Shown here: positions 26,033 through 58,570 of the stretch, piece by piece | Position numbering within the stretch: position 1 is the stretch's first letter | How the letters are laid out: each line of letters starts with the position of its first letter | Origin: Candidatus Methanoperedens sp. | GTDB taxonomy: Archaea > Halobacteriota > Methanosarcinia > Methanosarcinales > Methanoperedenaceae | Direction: 5' to 3' | Assembly: GCA_026552975.1 (NCBI GenBank) | Contig: JAPMTR010000073.1 | Coordinates: forward strand, 1 to 60,019 | DNA: 60,019 nucleotides | Translations under genes and position numbers: made by a program | The notes under the pieces: model-generated | What the model was told of the DNA's origin: nothing | Databases searched by the model: none | Seen by the model: only the letters and a program-made list of their open reading frames with translations

Positions 26033-26863
26033 ATGACTGAATACGTTAATAACAATATTCTTGTGGTTTTATTGATTATGGCCTTCTTTACAGGCGCAAC
26101 GATCCAGTTCAGCGAAGGCTCGGCTCTTATAGGCATAATTTTGTTCCTGGTTGCCCTGGGACTTACGACCAGAATAAAATTAAGTGGTGAATATATAACA
26201 AAAACCTCAAGATATTATGTCGTCATTGGAATATTGATACTTCTTGCTGATATAGCTTATAACATGAAAGCAATGAACCAGCTTGGAACGATTGATTCAA
26301 TGACCTTTTTTATGGGTATATCCCTTATCGCTTATGGAACGAGCCAGTACAGGAGAATGGGTGAATTTGGGATATACATGTCAGGCACTTTCATAGTCCT
26401 TTATTTGTTTTTTTATTCATTGCTCCCATCGCTTCATAATAATTTTATCCATGATTTTGATCATTATCTGGTCCTGATTCCATCCCTTTCCATCGTAAAT
26501 ACTCTGACAAATATGAATATTAGTATCATAGGAACAGAAACTGTTCATTTTGATGGATTTGAAGATGCCACGGTAGTAATTGGCGGTCCCTGCTCAGGTC
26601 TGTATTCGATGTTGCTTCTTATAGGTATCATTGTCGGATATGCAAAAATGGAAACCCTGAAAGACAGGAAAAAAGTCTTATTATTGGTAATTACCGCAAT
26701 AATTGTTGCATATTTTGCTAATTTGATACGGGTATCCATATTATATTATGTTGCATACTATTACGGAATTGAAAAAATGATGTTCGTCCATGTATATCTG
26801 GGCTGGATAATATTTGTCATAATTAGCTTTGGGATAATGACAGCTTTGAACAGGATAAAATAG
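26033..26863 (+). CDS. artC: Archaeosortase C (PEF-CTERM type)
   Basis: This 276-residue membrane protein has about eight helices and the exosortase/archaeosortase catalytic triad: Cys187 in GGPCSGLYSM, Arg233 in ANLIRVSILY and His253 in VHVYLGW. Archaeosortases cut C-terminal sorting signals of the PEF, PGF or VPXXXP type and are thought to join the protein to a membrane lipid. A PEF-CTERM protein is encoded at 30582-31136, matching the ArtC class. The reading frame ends 3 bases before the stop of the converging DUF1616 gene. Confidence 0.9.
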   Translation: MTEYVNNNILVVLLIMAFFTGATIQFSEGSALIGIILFLVALGLTTRIKLSGEYITKTSRYYVVIGILILLADIAYNMKAMNQLGTIDSMTFFMGISLIAYGTSQYRRMGEFGIYMSGTFIVLYLFFYSLLPSLHNNFIHDFDHYLVLIPSLSIVNTLTNMNISIIGTETVHFDGFEDATVVIGGPCSGLYSMLLLIGIIVGYAKMETLKDRKKVLLLVITAIIVAYFANLIRVSILYYVAYYYGIEKMMFVHVYLGWIIFVIISFGIMTALNRIK

Positions 26864-30521: not shown

Positions 30522-30581
30522 CATGAAGGACGATAAGTAACTAACCACATTAGTGGAATAATCCTAGGAGTGATAAATAAA

Positions 30582-31136
30582 ATGAGAAATAGATTATTAA
30601 TGATCCCCGTGATGTTGACGGTGTTGGTAGCGATGACAGGGATAGGAGGCGCATATACTACTGCGACACCTTCGAATATTGAAATTGATATAAATCCGCC
30701 AAATCCGGAAACGATTGTGACAGTTACATATGATCCTGAGGGAGGAGCTCTTCCTACTGATGGATTGAAATTCACAATACGAGATGGAGAGTTTTCAGGG
30801 GTTGGTAACCTTGCTACTGAAATAACCGGCTCCCAAAATGGGGGGAGTTCTTATGTCGGAAATAATGGTATTCTGCCACCAGTTTCTGAAATAGGAGGAA
30901 AATATTCTTGGACTTTCTATGTAAAGGATGCAGTTGACTCAGATGATGCGACTCAATTAGGCAAAAAATATAATGTAGTATTTGAGGTGTTGGGAACAAC
31001 AGGAATTGCATCATATACAATAACAAGTTCACCTACAATTGCAACCGCGATTCCCGAATTCCCCACAGTCGCCCTGCCAATAGCAGCAGTAATTGGACTC
31101 GTATTCCTCTTCCAGAATAAGAAGAAAAAAGAATAA
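30582..31136 (+). CDS. PEF-CTERM secreted protein, probable archaeosortase target
   Basis: This is a 184-residue protein with a signal peptide (MRNRLLMIPVMLTVLVAMTG) and a C-terminal sorting signal: PEF in ATAIPEFPTVALP, a hydrophobic helix and a KKKKE tail. The body from about 25 to 150 is beta-rich, like a single immunoglobulin-like domain. I prefer the ATG at 30582 over an in-frame GTG at 30570, because the Shine-Dalgarno site AGGAGTGAT overlaps that GTG. It has its own promoter and a terminator, so it is probably made in quantity. It is the likely substrate of the archaeosortase at 26033-26863. Confidence 0.85.
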   Translation: MRNRLLMIPVMLTVLVAMTGIGGAYTTATPSNIEIDINPPNPETIVTVTYDPEGGALPTDGLKFTIRDGEFSGVGNLATEITGSQNGGSSYVGNNGILPPVSEIGGKYSWTFYVKDAVDSDDATQLGKKYNVVFEVLGTTGIASYTITSSPTIATAIPEFPTVALPIAAVIGLVFLFQNKKKKE

Positions 31137-53732: not shown

Positions 53733-54182
53733 ATGAACCGGACTTTATTAATATTAGTTTTGTTTTTTATTCTTTCAGTGGCTTTATCGGGATGCATCGA
53801 TAATAGGAAATCTGAAGAAAACAAAATTGCAGACACCACGATATCCGAGAAAAACACATTTATGAACATCAATGTCACACAGGGAAAAGAAATGATCGAC
53901 AGGGGAGAAGTTTTCATTCTTGATGTCAGAAGACCGGATGAATACTCTAATGGGCACATCAGAAATTCAACACTACTGGCAGTCCAGGATATTCCGGCGC
54001 AGGACCTTGAGACAAAACTTAAAGAATTACCAAAGGACAGCAAGATCCTTGTATATTGCAGATCAGGAAGTCGAAGCGTTGCGGCCAGCAATATCCTGGT
54101 GAATAACGGTTTTTCGCAGGTTTATAATATGCAGGGTGGAATTAACGGATGGATAAGTGCCGGTTATGAAACCGTACAATGA
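53733..54182 (+). CDS. Rhodanese-like lipoprotein
   Basis: This 149-residue protein has a signal peptide with lipobox LSGC (Cys20), a short linker and a rhodanese domain: VFILDVRRPDEYSNGHI and the active-site loop CRSGSRSVAAS, with the persulfide-bearing Cys present, then QGGINGWISAGY. It is thus probably anchored at the outside of the membrane and can carry sulfane sulfur. It begins a plus-strand run with DsrE-, IscS- and IscU-like genes. Confidence 0.88.
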   Translation: MNRTLLILVLFFILSVALSGCIDNRKSEENKIADTTISEKNTFMNINVTQGKEMIDRGEVFILDVRRPDEYSNGHIRNSTLLAVQDIPAQDLETKLKELPKDSKILVYCRSGSRSVAASNILVNNGFSQVYNMQGGINGWISAGYETVQ

Positions 54183-54211: not shown

Positions 54212-55462
54212 TTGAAATGGATTAAGAAGATCTTCGCAAATAAGGAAAGCCGCCAGGACACTTTAAACCTTGATCAACTTCCTGGGTGGCTTGAATCAAA
54301 GTCCAGGAAAATTTCTGAGGAAACAGGCAGGAAAGTCTCTTCCATTTTCCCTGAAATAAAAAAGACCCTTGCCAGGATAAAAAACAGCACTGAAGAACTT
54401 GATAAATCAAAACCTGAAGGAAGATTTCATCTAAAGATGATAAAGGTTGCAACAAGCAACAGGGACAATATGTCAAAACAGGTCAAAATGCTTCTGGAGA
54501 ATATAGTTATACCGGAAGAAAAAGATGTCAAGACTATAATTACTTTTCATAAAAACGGTATGCATACCCTTGGAATTTGTCTTGAGAACATGATGAAGAG
54601 TTACCAGTATACAAAACTGGTGTATTTTGAGGAATCAAAGGATGTTATTGCTGATGTTAATTCCCTCGGACGGCTCCTTAACCATCTGGTAGAAGATATT
54701 GATCTTAAAAAACCCCTGCTAGATGCCCTTGATATGTCACAGGGACTTGTGATATATATCAAGAAGATCGCCGTGGATATTGATTCTATCGAAAGGTCAA
54801 TGAAAGAAACCGATGCAAGAATCGTCTTTTTGAAAAAAGAGATAGAAGAAGATCAAAATGATTTGAATATCCTGATACAGAGTCAAATCTGGAAACAATA
54901 TGTTTCAGCAAAAGAACAGTTGATATTACTTGAATCTAATGCGCAAAAGAAGTCATCTGAAATCAATGATATCATTTCTCCTCTATCCAAGGCCATAAAC
55001 AGGTTAAAGCAATTAAGTGAAAGTGGAAGATATACCCTGAAACCGGAAGATCGTGATGCATTGAATATATGCCTGTCGTGTCCAATCGATGTCCCCCCGG
55101 AATTTTTTATTACCTTCCAGAAAATCGTTGAAAGTGGTGAGCTTAACCTCCAAAAGACTGATAAACTCCTTCCCCAGATACAGCTTGCAGCATCGACCCT
55201 GGGTGAAAAGAGAAAAGAGTACAATTTGATCCTTGATGAAATAAGAACAAAAGAAGATGAAATATCAAAGATGAAGGTCATAGGGGAAGAAAAAGAGCTC
55301 AAAGACTCTATCACAGCTTTGGAGGATAAACTTATTCTTGCCGAAAAAGACATTGACGCATCCAGAAAAAAAATCGAGTTACTTAAAAAGGATCTTGAAT
55401 CTAAGAGACTTGAATTGCAGCAGAATATATCAATGATTGACAACAATGTAAGATTATCTTAA
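54212..55462 (+). CDS. Coiled-coil protein of unknown function
   Basis: The 416-residue protein starts at TTG (54212) after AAGGATT. It has a helical N-terminal part (about 1-190) and long coiled coils in the middle and at the end (roughly 195-260 and 330-405), with one CLSCPIDVPPEFF segment between. No membrane segment or signal peptide is visible. I recall such proteins as archaeal conserved hypotheticals. It lies between the rhodanese and DsrE-like genes, 29 and 17 bases away; the link to sulfur metabolism is only positional. Confidence 0.75.
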   Translation: MKWIKKIFANKESRQDTLNLDQLPGWLESKSRKISEETGRKVSSIFPEIKKTLARIKNSTEELDKSKPEGRFHLKMIKVATSNRDNMSKQVKMLLENIVIPEEKDVKTIITFHKNGMHTLGICLENMMKSYQYTKLVYFEESKDVIADVNSLGRLLNHLVEDIDLKKPLLDALDMSQGLVIYIKKIAVDIDSIERSMKETDARIVFLKKEIEEDQNDLNILIQSQIWKQYVSAKEQLILLESNAQKKSSEINDIISPLSKAINRLKQLSESGRYTLKPEDRDALNICLSCPIDVPPEFFITFQKIVESGELNLQKTDKLLPQIQLAASTLGEKRKEYNLILDEIRTKEDEISKMKVIGEEKELKDSITALEDKLILAEKDIDASRKKIELLKKDLESKRLELQQNISMIDNNVRLS

Positions 55463-55479
55463 CATAATCGGGAGATAAA

Positions 55480-55839
55480 ATGACAAACCTTCTATATGTA
55501 CAAACAAGCGGAATCGATACACCAGAACGCCTTTATTCTCCATTCATCCTTGCCCAGACAGCAAAAGCTATGGGGATCGATGCAATAATATATTTCCTGG
55601 GAATGGGAGTTACGGTAGTTAAAAAAGGAAATGCTGACAATATTAAAATGGGAGCTTTCCCTTCTCTTAAGGAAGTGATGGACCAGACCATTAAAGCAGG
55701 TGTCAAGCTCATGGTATGTGAACAGAGCTGCAAGCTCATCAATCTTAATACCGGGGATTTTATACCAAAAGCTGAGATCGTCGGAGCAGCTACTCTCAAT
55801 GACCTGGTGCTTGAAGCAGATGGGACCATGTGGTTTTAG
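55480..55839 (+). CDS. DsrE/DsrF-like sulfur-relay protein
   Basis: This 119-residue protein fits the DsrE fold: LLYVQTSGIDTPERLYSPF, AKAMGIDAIIYFLGMGVTVV and the conserved cysteine loop LMVCEQSCKL (Cys80 and Cys84). Members accept or hand on persulfide sulfur in relay systems (TusBCD, DsrEFH). It precedes a rubredoxin-like protein by 9 bases and a cysteine desulfurase-like gene, so a sulfur-relay role is likely. GGGAGAT lies 8-10 bases before the ATG. Confidence 0.85.
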   Translation: MTNLLYVQTSGIDTPERLYSPFILAQTAKAMGIDAIIYFLGMGVTVVKKGNADNIKMGAFPSLKEVMDQTIKAGVKLMVCEQSCKLINLNTGDFIPKAEIVGAATLNDLVLEADGTMWF

Positions 55840-55848
55840 GTGACAAAT

Positions 55849-56010
55849 ATGAAAGTACAATGGAAATGTTCTTTATGCGGTTACCACTTTGAAGGCACAG
55901 CGCAACCACCTGCAAAGTGTCCAAGTTGCAACGAAGCATGTGCTTTTATCGACGCGACATGCTATATACCGGAATGCCAGGGTCCTGAAGGCAGGGATAG
56001 GCGTATTTAA
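55849..56010 (+). CDS. Small rubredoxin-like protein with extra cysteines
   Basis: This 53-residue protein starts KVQWKCSLCGYHFEG and has PAKCPSCNEACAF, so it has two CxxC knuckles like rubredoxin or the rubrerythrin tail. Three further cysteines follow in NEACAF and ATCYIPECQ. AGGTGA five bases before ATG 55849 supports the start. It may carry iron for electron transfer or zinc. Its place between a DsrE-like and an IscS-like gene suggests a role in sulfur reduction or cluster assembly. Confidence 0.75.
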   Translation: MKVQWKCSLCGYHFEGTAQPPAKCPSCNEACAFIDATCYIPECQGPEGRDRRI

Positions 56011-56070: not shown

Positions 56071-57234
56071 ATGAGACAGGTTTACATGGATTACGGGTCT
56101 GCTTCACCCGTGGAAAAACGCGTGCTTGAGGCTATGATGCCGTTTTTTGATACAGATGTGGGGAACGCTTCATCTCTTCACTCCTCAGGACGAAAAGCCA
56201 AACGAGAGCTTGAAAATGCGCGTGCAAGTGTGGCAAAGCTCATTGGCGCTCCAAATCCAAAAAGTATTATTTTCACATCCTGCGCGACCGAATCCAATAA
56301 TCTTGCGCTTCGCGGCGCAGCGATGCGATATAAGGATAAAGGGAATCACATCATCACAACGTCGATAGAACATATGTCAGTGATGAATACCTTAAAAGAC
56401 CTGGAAAGGAACGGATTTGAGGTAACGTACATTCCTGTGGATAAAGATGGGCTTGTTTCTCCCCAACAGGTTAAGAACGCAATAACCGAGAAGACCATCC
56501 TTATTTCAGTCATGTATGCCAATGGCGAGATAGGGACGATCCAGCCGATCAGTGAGATCGGGGAGGTCGCATCAGAGAAAAAAATTGTTTTCCATGTGGA
56601 TGGGACAGCAGCATGCGGTAAAATTCCCGTGGATGTTGAGAAAGATCATATTGACTTTTTGACCCTTTCATCTAATGACATAGGGGGTGCAAAAGGTACG
56701 GGCGCGCTCTATATAAAACAGGGCATCAGGGTAATTCCATTCATGTTAGGAGGAGGACAGGAGTTCGGGATGAGATCAGGGTCTGAGAACATTCCCGGAA
56801 TAGTAGCTATGGGAAAAGCTGCTGAAATCGCAATAAAAGAGATGACTGATGAAAGCTTAAGGCTTGTCAGGTTGCGGGACAGGATCATTGATAATTTGTT
56901 AAAGACAGAATACACATACCTTACCGGCCACAGGACAAAAAGACTTCCAAATAATGCAAGTTTCAGGTTCAGCTTTATCGAAGGTGAAAGCATCATACTC
57001 CAGCTCAATGACCTTGGAATAACAGCAAGCACAGGCTCAGCGTGTTCCACAAAAACGCTTCAACCTTCCCATGTCCTGATCGCAATGGGATTAAGGCATG
57101 AAGAGGCGCACGGTTCTCTCCTTCTGACGCTTGGGCGTGCCAGTACGCAGGAAGATGTTGATCATGTCATTGAATCCGTGCCTATGATAGTGTCAAAATT
57201 AAGAGAATTATCACCACTTTACTCGAGGAAATAA
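56071..57234 (+). CDS. IscS/NifS-like protein lacking the PLP lysine
   Basis: This 387-residue fold-type I protein is like cysteine desulfurases throughout: YMDYGSASPV at the start, TSCATESNNLAL, EHMSV with His101, FHVDGTAACGKIPVDV with Asp177, RSGSENIPG and the active-site loop TGSACSTKTLQPSH with Cys324. In the segment that is normally S-x-HK-xx-GPKG it reads SSNDIGGAKG, so the Schiff-base lysine is Asp203 and the preceding His is Asn. I recall an unusual IscS with the same change in Archaeoglobus fulgidus. Ordinary PLP desulfuration is therefore doubtful. The next gene begins one base later. Confidence 0.88.
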   Translation: MRQVYMDYGSASPVEKRVLEAMMPFFDTDVGNASSLHSSGRKAKRELENARASVAKLIGAPNPKSIIFTSCATESNNLALRGAAMRYKDKGNHIITTSIEHMSVMNTLKDLERNGFEVTYIPVDKDGLVSPQQVKNAITEKTILISVMYANGEIGTIQPISEIGEVASEKKIVFHVDGTAACGKIPVDVEKDHIDFLTLSSNDIGGAKGTGALYIKQGIRVIPFMLGGGQEFGMRSGSENIPGIVAMGKAAEIAIKEMTDESLRLVRLRDRIIDNLLKTEYTYLTGHRTKRLPNNASFRFSFIEGESIILQLNDLGITASTGSACSTKTLQPSHVLIAMGLRHEEAHGSLLLTLGRASTQEDVDHVIESVPMIVSKLRELSPLYSRK

Positions 57235-57235
57235 T

Positions 57236-58570
57236 ATGGAAGAACAATTAGAATATACAGAAAAGGTAATGGATCATTTCAGGAACCCGAGAAATGTCGG
57301 GCAGGTAAAAGATGCCGATGGAACAGGACGGGTGGGAAATCCTGTGTGTGGTGACTTGATGGAGATCCAGATCAAGGTCGAGAACAATATCTTAAAGGAT
57401 GTTAAATTCAAGACATTCGGATGTGGATCAGCTATTGCCACAAGCAGTATGATAACTGAAATGGCCATAGGAAAAACACTTGAAGAAGCCCTGAAGATCA
57501 CACGCGGAGAGGTAGCAGAAGAGCTTGGCGGTCTTCCTGCCATCAAGATGCACTGCTCAAACCTTGCAGCCGATGCCCTTCATGCAGCAATAAAGGATTA
57601 TATGTCACATAAAGAAGAGAAGGCAAAAACAGAAGGGGAAAATTATGACTTTGATGTGATCATCGTTGGCGGAGGCCCCGGCGGACTTAATGCAGGAATA
57701 TTATGCGCTTACCGCGGACTTAAGACTGCTGTTTTTGAAGGGTCGGCATGGGGTGGGATCTTATCATGGCTCTGTCCTGGAAAGATGATCGAGAATTTCC
57801 CGGGAATGTGCGATAAAACAACATGTTCTGACCTTGTTGGGACATGGGTGAGTGAAGCAAAGAAACTGAAAGTCGATCTTAAGAAAGAGCGCGTCAATGA
57901 GATCACCGCAGACCGGAAAGTCATTACGGATAGCGGTGAGTACAAAGGTAAGATAATCGTACTTGCAACAGGAAGCTCTCCTAAATCCGCAGGTTTAAAA
58001 GGCGAAGAAAAATTCGGCAAAGATGACCGCGGAGTCTCTTATTATGTACGAAATCCCCAGGATTTCCTGGGAAAACGTGTCCTGGTCGTTGGCTGCGGGA
58101 ATTCTGCAGTTGATTCAGCCCTGAGCCTTGCAGATACTGCTGATCTTATCACAATAGCATGCGGGAAAGAAGAATTAAGGACAGTTCCGCAAAAAATAGA
58201 GAGATTAAAAGCGATCGATAAGGTTAAGGTTCTTTATAATACTGAAATGGTCGAGATCACAGGTACGGACAAGGTCGAAAAAGTGATTATGAAAGACCTC
58301 AAGGAAGATGAGGACATCCAGCAGGTCGTGGATTCAGTTGTCCTGGCCGTGGGTCTTACACCGAATACTGAGATATTTAAGAAGCTTGGGCTTGAAATGG
58401 ATGAGAATGGATATATCGAGACAGATAAGACCCAGAAGACCAATATCGACGGGGTATATGCTGTCGGAGATATCGCTTCAGACCTTCAGCTCGTTGTGGT
58501 GGCTGTGGCAAATGCAGCAACGGTTGCGCATAATGCGTATATCGAATTGAGGAAACCGTACTGGAGATAG
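57236..58570 (+). CDS. IscU scaffold fused to a thioredoxin-reductase-like flavoprotein
   Basis: This 444-residue protein is a fusion. Residues 1-125 are IscU-like, with GNPVCGDLMEI (Cys38, Asp40), FGCGSAIATS (Cys63) and MHCSNLAADAL (Cys107), all three ligand cysteines and the Asp intact. After a charged linker, 139-444 form a two-dinucleotide flavoprotein: FAD motif VGGGPGG (144-150), NAD(P) motif VGCGNSAVD (285-293) and YAVGDIASD near 408-416. The redox CxxC of thioredoxin reductases is absent; VSYYVRNPQDFLGKR resembles TrxR-like ferredoxin-NAD(P) reductases. It probably brings electrons to the scaffold. A hairpin terminator follows. Confidence 0.88.
   Translation: MEEQLEYTEKVMDHFRNPRNVGQVKDADGTGRVGNPVCGDLMEIQIKVENNILKDVKFKTFGCGSAIATSSMITEMAIGKTLEEALKITRGEVAEELGGLPAIKMHCSNLAADALHAAIKDYMSHKEEKAKTEGENYDFDVIIVGGGPGGLNAGILCAYRGLKTAVFEGSAWGGILSWLCPGKMIENFPGMCDKTTCSDLVGTWVSEAKKLKVDLKKERVNEITADRKVITDSGEYKGKIIVLATGSSPKSAGLKGEEKFGKDDRGVSYYVRNPQDFLGKRVLVVGCGNSAVDSALSLADTADLITIACGKEELRTVPQKIERLKAIDKVKVLYNTEMVEITGTDKVEKVIMKDLKEDEDIQQVVDSVVLAVGLTPNTEIFKKLGLEMDENGYIETDKTQKTNIDGVYAVGDIASDLQLVVVAVANAATVAHNAYIELRKPYWR

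Follow-up and report, generated by a model that had tools for sequence, protein, structure and literature searches.

Fusion of the Fe-S scaffold IscU to a thioredoxin reductase-like flavoprotein in Candidatus Methanoperedens, next to a lysine-less IscS and a DsrE-family gene

Why would a protein on which iron-sulfur clusters are built carry a flavoprotein as part of the same chain? The question is raised by a gene in the window, by which I mean the entire 60,019-nucleotide stretch of Candidatus Methanoperedens DNA analysed here, which belongs to a genome assembled into 121 contigs (2.57 Mb in total). An earlier note, made from the sequence alone, saw in this gene a built-in reductase for cluster assembly. 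That remains the best reading and is partly supported by what follows; the note overlooked the main context of the gene, however, which is a lysine-less IscS with conserved sulfur-relay partners. Methane-oxidising archaea rely heavily on Fe-S enzymes, and the fusion would allow reduction of sulfur and assembly of the cluster to be followed on a single protein.

The fused gene and its two domains

The gene (57236..58570, + strand) starts with ATG one base past the stop codon of iscS and encodes 444 amino acids in an unbroken frame. Its description as IscU joined in a single frame to a thioredoxin reductase (TrxR)-like flavoprotein is confirmed by Pfam, which finds NifU_N at residues 6-127 (57251..57616, +; E = 1.2e-49; 168.1 bits against a cut-off of 22) and Pyr_redox_2 at residues 139-427 (57650..58516, +; E = 1e-42). 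The IscU part is complete, as the earlier note had it, with three ligand cysteines (C38, C63 and C107) and the conserved aspartate (D40); these and H106 are invariant in all 43 full-length fusions aligned. Its nearest NCBIfam model is TIGR03419, NifU_clost (202.4 bits, above the cut-off of 187.9), and it falls below the cut-off of TIGR01999, iscU (149.7 bits against 192.4). The closest solved relatives are 7c8m, titled 'Nitrogen-fixing NifU domain protein', with its kin, and NifU-1 of 4eb5. The latter, the IscU chain of Archaeoglobus fulgidus (4eb5_C), has 153 amino acids and, unlike the fusion, no reductase.

The same fused frame recurs across 43 genomes and is therefore not an artefact of assembly, whether frameshift or chimera. 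It is open in 28 of the 31 genomes of the genus Methanoperedens, the 27 relatives being 74-93% identical to the copy in the window, and it is found in 15 further genomes of the order. In one case (G042, locus L116) the match was reported with a single stop, yet an open frame covers the entire fusion. The alignment used throughout has 43 rows, 28 of them Methanoperedens copies and 15 copies of other lineages; three rows, of which one was partial, another truncated and the last standalone, were excluded. In the AF2 model of the fusion (39-row alignment; mean pLDDT 86.8, pTM 0.63), the last IscU helix reaches residue 134 and the flavin domain opens with a strand at 139, so that the predicted linker is about four residues long; the relative placement of the two domains is left unfixed by the model at that pTM.

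The flavin domain was said to have lost the redox CxxC of thioredoxin reductases and to resemble ferredoxin-NAD(P) reductases. The first statement holds for every copy: none of the 43 fusions has a cysteine at residues 262-276, where residues of the YVRN or LTAD type take the place of the CxxC that is retained in all 29 standalone TrxRs aligned with samples of the fusions. The second needs correcting: TrxR proper is nearest by both sequence and fold, and the ferredoxin-NADP reductases of TrxR fold rank lower. The domain has the TrxR fold, and its closest solved relatives are TrxRs; low-Mr TrxB (5mh4, 7jyp, 4zn0) shares the fold and provides the best sequence relatives, from which the fusion differs in lacking CxxC, in having an extra loop with Cys180 and in its place behind IscU. 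The nearest NCBIfam model is TIGR01292, TRX_reduct, with 218.2 bits against a cut-off of 343.45, and so the domain is not a thioredoxin reductase by the equivalog rule of NCBIfam.

Beyond the IscU part, Cys180 (codon at 57773..57775, +, computed from the frame) is the sole cysteine that all 43 fusions share, the full invariant set being C38, C63, C107 and C180; one additional cysteine is common to just the 15 fusions from outside Methanoperedens. It lies between WGG and the N and PG of a motif (I)EN(F/Y)PG, all of them invariant, in a loop that is three residues longer than in TrxRs by HMMER alignment and missing from all 29 standalone TrxRs. A thirtieth hit in the standalone set is a dihydrolipoamide dehydrogenase, whose redox cysteines follow the same GG at a similar distance, and this suggests that Cys180 may be near the flavin. 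The same placement after the GG of the FAD domain hints at an equivalence with the cysteine of Npsr and CoA-disulfide reductase, FAD enzymes of another branch of the superfamily that, according to parts of PMC7969121, reduce persulfides at a single cysteine adjoining the flavin. Together with Cys180, the glycines of the first glycine-rich motif (G145, G147, G150) and WGG at 172-174 are invariant across lineages that are only about 50% identical.

The earlier proposal that the scaffold takes electrons directly from NAD(P)H fares less evenly. It is plausible for the 19 of 28 Methanoperedens copies that have the HR pair of the nucleotide motif. The copy in the window is not among them (its motif reads ACGKEELR, with CG in place of HR), nor is any of the 15 others, all of which also have GN where the 28 Methanoperedens copies have GD near the C-terminus. 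With both motifs altered, the domain in these 15 may use a different donor or be inactive. Copies without HR might draw on ferredoxin, F420H2 or some other donor.

A lysine-less IscS and its sulfur-relay partners

The gene immediately before the fusion encodes an IscS homologue (56071..57234, +) in which Asp203 (codon 56677-56679, computed) stands where desulfurases carry the PLP lysine of HKxxGPKG; the cysteine of the active-site loop is retained as Cys325 in STGSACS. Of 44 fusion loci, 43 have such an ND-type, lysine-less IscS immediately before the fusion, and in the 44th (L019) the contig begins at the fusion. The genome of the window also has an unfused IscU, which adjoins an IscS of the HK type (AHKIYGPKG).

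The best PDB match of the window's IscS is that of A. fulgidus, 4EB5, with which it shares the motif SSND; the IscU chain of that entry, in turn, is one of the best matches to the scaffold domain of the fusion. Entry 4R5F, unlike 4EB5, has K instead of D at this site. Passages of PMC7585200 state that A. fulgidus IscS has no desulfurase activity, owing to the change from Lys to Asp, and that it gives a cysteine ligand to the cluster in the IscS-IscU structure. PLP may still bind a lysine-less IscS, as it is depicted in the A. fulgidus complex in a figure legend of PMC9769115. Without the PLP lysine in the neighbouring IscS, a persulfide derived from cysteine is unlikely. The role in cluster assembly of lysine-less IscS homologues, such as the one crystallised from Archaeoglobus, has so far been unclear, and the linkage described next offers a testable source of sulfur, a persulfide on DsrE or TusA.

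Upstream of iscS in the window is a conserved partner, a DsrE-family protein (55480..55839, +; Pfam E = 3.5e-18) with a conserved cysteine in a motif (V/I)C(E/D).S (alignment of 32 sequences). Of 56 loci with a lysine-less IscS, 52 have DsrE beside it (Fisher p = 1e-16) and 40 have TusA (p = 8e-10), as against none of 24 loci with a lysine-bearing IscS in either case; both p values overstate independence, because the loci are related. Neighbours were counted within 1.5 kb on the same strand, of which lysine-bearing L137 and L146 have only about 1 kb upstream. The main set consists of 49 lysine-less loci (48 with DsrE, 35 with TusA) and 20 lysine-bearing loci with neither. To the former were added L151, two Methanosarcina-like loci with Thr in place of the lysine and L171-L174; to the latter, the second copy in L124 and the copies in L194, L196 and L197, all without DsrE or TusA. 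Where locus names double (L004/L033; L167-L170 and L175-L178 among L179-L186; L193/L154; L195/L144), each place has one count. Left out of the counts were short fusion loci outside the named set, L019, L021 and L046, whose contigs start inside or after iscS, and a distant IscS-like frame without the motif in L139.

The four lysine-less loci in which an intact DsrE is missing are L037, L151, L171 and L173. Of the two from Methanoperedens, L037 (6789-9332) keeps the fusion with no DsrE nearby, and L151 (5316-6521) has neither DsrE nor TusA nearby and no fusion downstream. Before the lysine-less iscS of L171 there is TusA and only a piece of the C-terminal end of DsrE (1416-1493), and before that of L173 only a piece matching the same end (2668-2718); these pieces could reflect either decay of the gene or an error of assembly. 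Both TusA and DsrE are beside the lysine-less IscS of L172 and L174. TusA is found at none of the 15 Methanoperedenaceae loci counted and at 40 of the 41 remaining loci.

The association extends beyond the order. From the loci outside it that were matched by a profile of lysine-less IscS, 14 were taken (L179-L192), and in every one the genes of TusA, DsrE and an ND-type IscS follow one another, the IscS of L185 being split into two frames. A frame of the IscU type comes right after iscS in 12 of these and 1.1 to 1.7 kb further on in L182 and L186. The frames stop without a flavin domain in all but L179, where the frame reaches the end of the contig and could continue into a fusion. In samples run through Pfam, the assignments of TusA, DsrE and NifU_N were confirmed. 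The profile (A1), built from ten lysine-less IscS, gave, among the matches listed, at least 654 bits for 48 loci of the order and at most 563 bits for others, which include a lysine-less copy in G050 that is cut by its contig. The sulfur relay, consisting of DsrE and, outside Methanoperedenaceae, TusA, is the conserved partner set of lysine-less IscS.

A related arrangement is known from Methanosarcina acetivorans, where iscSU1 (MA0808/MA0807) encodes an IscS1 that lacks the catalytic lysine, like the IscS of the window, and has four neighbouring genes of unknown function (both according to parts of PMC7585200). Two genomes of one genus, G148 and G151, which I infer to be Methanosarcina, have a lysine-less IscS with the loop STGSACFS reported for IscS1, an IscU of similar size and TusA and DsrE upstream. 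At L198 (776-3516) and L199 (534-3455) the lysine is replaced by Thr (SAHTIHGPRG) rather than by Asp as in the window, TusA and DsrE are again upstream, and the IscU downstream is extended at its C-terminus. The extension in L198 is FeS_assembly_P (PF01883), so the domain fused to IscU in these Methanosarcina-like loci differs from the flavoprotein of the window.

Other neighbours in the window are less constant. DsrE is present in 12 of the 14 named Methanoperedens loci. A rubredoxin-like zinc-ribbon protein of 56 amino acids (RUBY_RBDX; 55840..56010, +; Pfam E = 3.2e-8), put forward earlier as a small partner of the fusion, is present in 10 of the 14, one of the other four having a contig that begins at the fusion, and is never found between dsrE and iscS in families f3, f5 and f4; it is thus not a general partner. 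Relatives of a protein that looks by eye like a coiled coil (54212..55462, +; no match in Pfam or NCBIfam) are upstream in 9 of the 14. A rhodanese-domain protein (53733..54182, +; Pfam), co-directional and with an N-terminus that by eye is lipoprotein-like, was considered as a conserved partner and rejected, since it occurs in only 1 of the 14.

Distribution and history of the fusion

Searches by similarity to the fusion found it in 43 of the 237 genomes that represent the class, none of them outside the order, and the 7 found in a sample of 392 genomes of the phylum were all already known from the order; the fusion was not seen to be general to archaea. The score thresholds were tuned to this fusion, and the contig scan used six peptides of one sequence and the best 80 of 116 relatives, so that distant fusions elsewhere may exist. 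The family is represented by 34 genomes, and the 28 that have the fusion are all Methanoperedens; among the best 80 of 116 relatives the closest named fusions are from Candidatus Methanoperedens. The 15 genomes of the order beyond the family comprise 9 in f3, 2 in genus g14 of f5 and 4 in genus g27 of f5, one g27 fusion ending at the edge of its contig. One f3 genome, G044, has two distinct fusion loci (L114 and L115), each with DsrE, TusA and a lysine-less IscS. In a sample of nine fusions, those of f3 and f5 are 64-68% identical to each other and 48-53% identical to those of Methanoperedens.

The lineages outside Methanoperedens that bear the fusion are probably anaerobic methanotrophs, and would then be ANME-2a/b and ANME-3. 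As expected for methanotrophy, the methanol methyltransferase MtaB is found within f5 in none of the 8 genomes examined from the two fusion-bearing genera (9 genomes), as against 7 of 7 from other genera. McrA is present in 28 of the 32 genomes examined, and the four misses include both g14 genomes and one fusion-bearing genome of f3. A cytochrome family, PF13435, was tried as a marker of methanotrophs and did not separate the groups.

In a tree of 45 IscS sequences, the 14 that adjoin a fusion fall within one supported group of 16 (100/98). The two members without a fusion are L150, whose contig ends just past iscS, and L129 of f3, where TusA, DsrE and IscS(ND) are kept and the IscU frame (1161-1586) goes only a few residues beyond the start of the flavin domain, as if the reductase had been lost. 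Because these two lie inside the clade, the label 'beside a fusion' needs three changes on the tree rather than one. With midpoint rooting, the lysine-less sequences do not form one clade, whereas the 14 lysine-bearing ones do. The pattern fits one fusion event followed by loss, and transfer of the fusion between lineages is possible.

Possible roles of the fused reductase

The earlier note knew of no described enzyme of this build, and none turned up in the open-access literature searched, which yielded no paper joining Methanoperedens and IscU and, among the papers listed that combine IscU with thioredoxin reductase or with a flavin and a fusion, nothing that looks like an account of this protein. 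The main text of PMC9012536, on ANME genomes, contains neither 'IscU' nor 'cysteine desulfurase'; that of PMC8351635 mentions none of TusA, DsrE and IscU, and that of PMC10500019 neither TusA nor DsrE.

The gene set suggests an assembly line that uses sulfur from a carrier instead of cysteine and has its own electron supply. I give an even chance to the proposal that the fusion serves as scaffold in a form of the ISC system that is independent of cysteine, fed by a DsrE (usually TusA-DsrE) relay, and that its flavin reductase reduces persulfide bound to the scaffold. Sulfur would arrive as a protein persulfide on DsrE in Methanoperedens, or on TusA and then DsrE in the other lineages, and would be handed to the lysine-less IscS, which would no longer desulfurate cysteine but would still dock IscU, its loop Cys325 serving as a relay or as a fourth cluster ligand. 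The persulfide would next move to the cysteines of IscU. The fused flavoprotein domain would load its FAD with electrons from NAD(P)H or a different donor and, probably via Cys180, reduce S0 to sulfide on the same polypeptide, so that a separate ferredoxin step would not be needed. The link between carrier-borne sulfur and a built-in reductase is favoured by the fact that the fusion is seen only with lysine-less IscS, the ordinary pair in the same genome being unfused. L129, which has TusA, DsrE, IscS(D) and IscU without a reductase, indicates that the reductase is dispensable there.

The nearest biochemical parallel is a system in vitro of NADPH, ferredoxin-NADP reductase (FNR) and ferredoxin acting with IscS and IscU, in which, unlike in the fusion, the proteins are separate and ferredoxin comes between them. 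The IscS of that system is reportedly an active desulfurase. Such a set is enough for assembly on IscS and IscU, with NADPH electrons passing through a flavoprotein as proposed here (according to parts of PMC4547094). Reducing the two S0 of one [2Fe-2S] cluster takes four electrons (PMC9769115). A wider form of the proposal, which I hold only tentatively, takes in many archaea of the phylum: desulfuration of cysteine would have been abandoned, TusA-DsrE would give S0 to a lysine-less IscS acting solely as platform and ligand donor, and in several lineages of methanotrophs the scaffold would have become fused to a flavoenzyme whose Cys180 takes the persulfide by the FAD, so that sulfur would be received, reduced and built into the cluster on one chain.

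The reductase might instead act after the [2Fe-2S] stage. Thioredoxin reductases are homodimers, and a dimer of this kind could pair two IscU domains, the two electrons of its FAD coupling two [2Fe-2S] clusters to [4Fe-4S], with sulfur supplied as sulfide or as persulfide. Reductive coupling on dimeric IscU, and formation of [4Fe-4S] on IscU2 of M. acetivorans, are described in parts of PMC7585200. I consider this role unlikely, as it leaves unexplained why the fusion occurs only with lysine-less IscS and why the lysine-bearing pair in the same genome is unfused.

It might also be that sulfide is the true source of sulfur, in which case there would be no persulfide to reduce, IscS(D) would be a partner that only donates a ligand, and DsrE and TusA would belong to a different pathway, for instance tRNA thiolation. 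The habitat of marine methanotrophs contains sulfide, which suits such a supply. Methanococcus maripaludis, moreover, uses sulfide and not cysteine, according to the portion of PMC7585200 drawn on here. I think this account improbable, however, because the presence of DsrE beside lysine-less IscS in nearly all loci, and in several families, points to a common function.

A third alternative, that the flavin domain protects or repairs the scaffold outside the assembly cycle, keeping its cysteines reduced or clearing polysulfide or oxidised sulfur under oxygen stress, takes its appeal from two loci outside Methanoperedens that were run through Pfam. The surroundings of L122 (f3) and L126 (f5) include a carboxymuconolactone decarboxylase-like protein, desulfoferrodoxin, a cytochrome c554-type protein and rubrerythrin, and nearby are flavodoxin or FMN reductase and other flavoproteins, one in L122 being of the flavodiiron type (ODP and flavodoxin). 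It seems to me quite unlikely nonetheless: the copy in the window has no such neighbours among the genes read, the named Methanoperedens loci gave no match to a desulfoferrodoxin query, and the domain lacks the CxxC normally used on disulfides. That the domain is a degenerating remnant, merely a structural or dimerising appendage, is very unlikely, for although the HR pair is gone from 24 of 43 copies, GD has become GN in 15, CxxC is absent from all and the reductase is lost outright in L129, 28 genomes of the genus keep an open frame and the glycine-rich motif, WGG and Cys180 have stayed invariant over the divergence between lineages.

A few side observations remain. A standalone TrxR with an intact CATC lies directly upstream of tusA in L181 (4104-5117), and there are TrxR-like frames at the edges of the loci L172 and L174 from the same genus. 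The TrxR-like frame, seen in three genomes of this genus (L169, L172, L174), was considered as a Rosetta-stone counterpart of the fused domain and supports that idea weakly, since L181, which is the same place as L169 and was read whole, has CATC and is no close relative of the fused domain. Elsewhere in the window are a long run of glycosyltransferase, sugar-nucleotide and polysaccharide-export-like genes (317-24121), which I take to be a surface polysaccharide cluster, an integral membrane protein that is presumably an archaeosortase look-alike (26033-26863) and, by the same kind of assumption, a small secreted protein with a PEF-CTERM-like tail (30570-31136).
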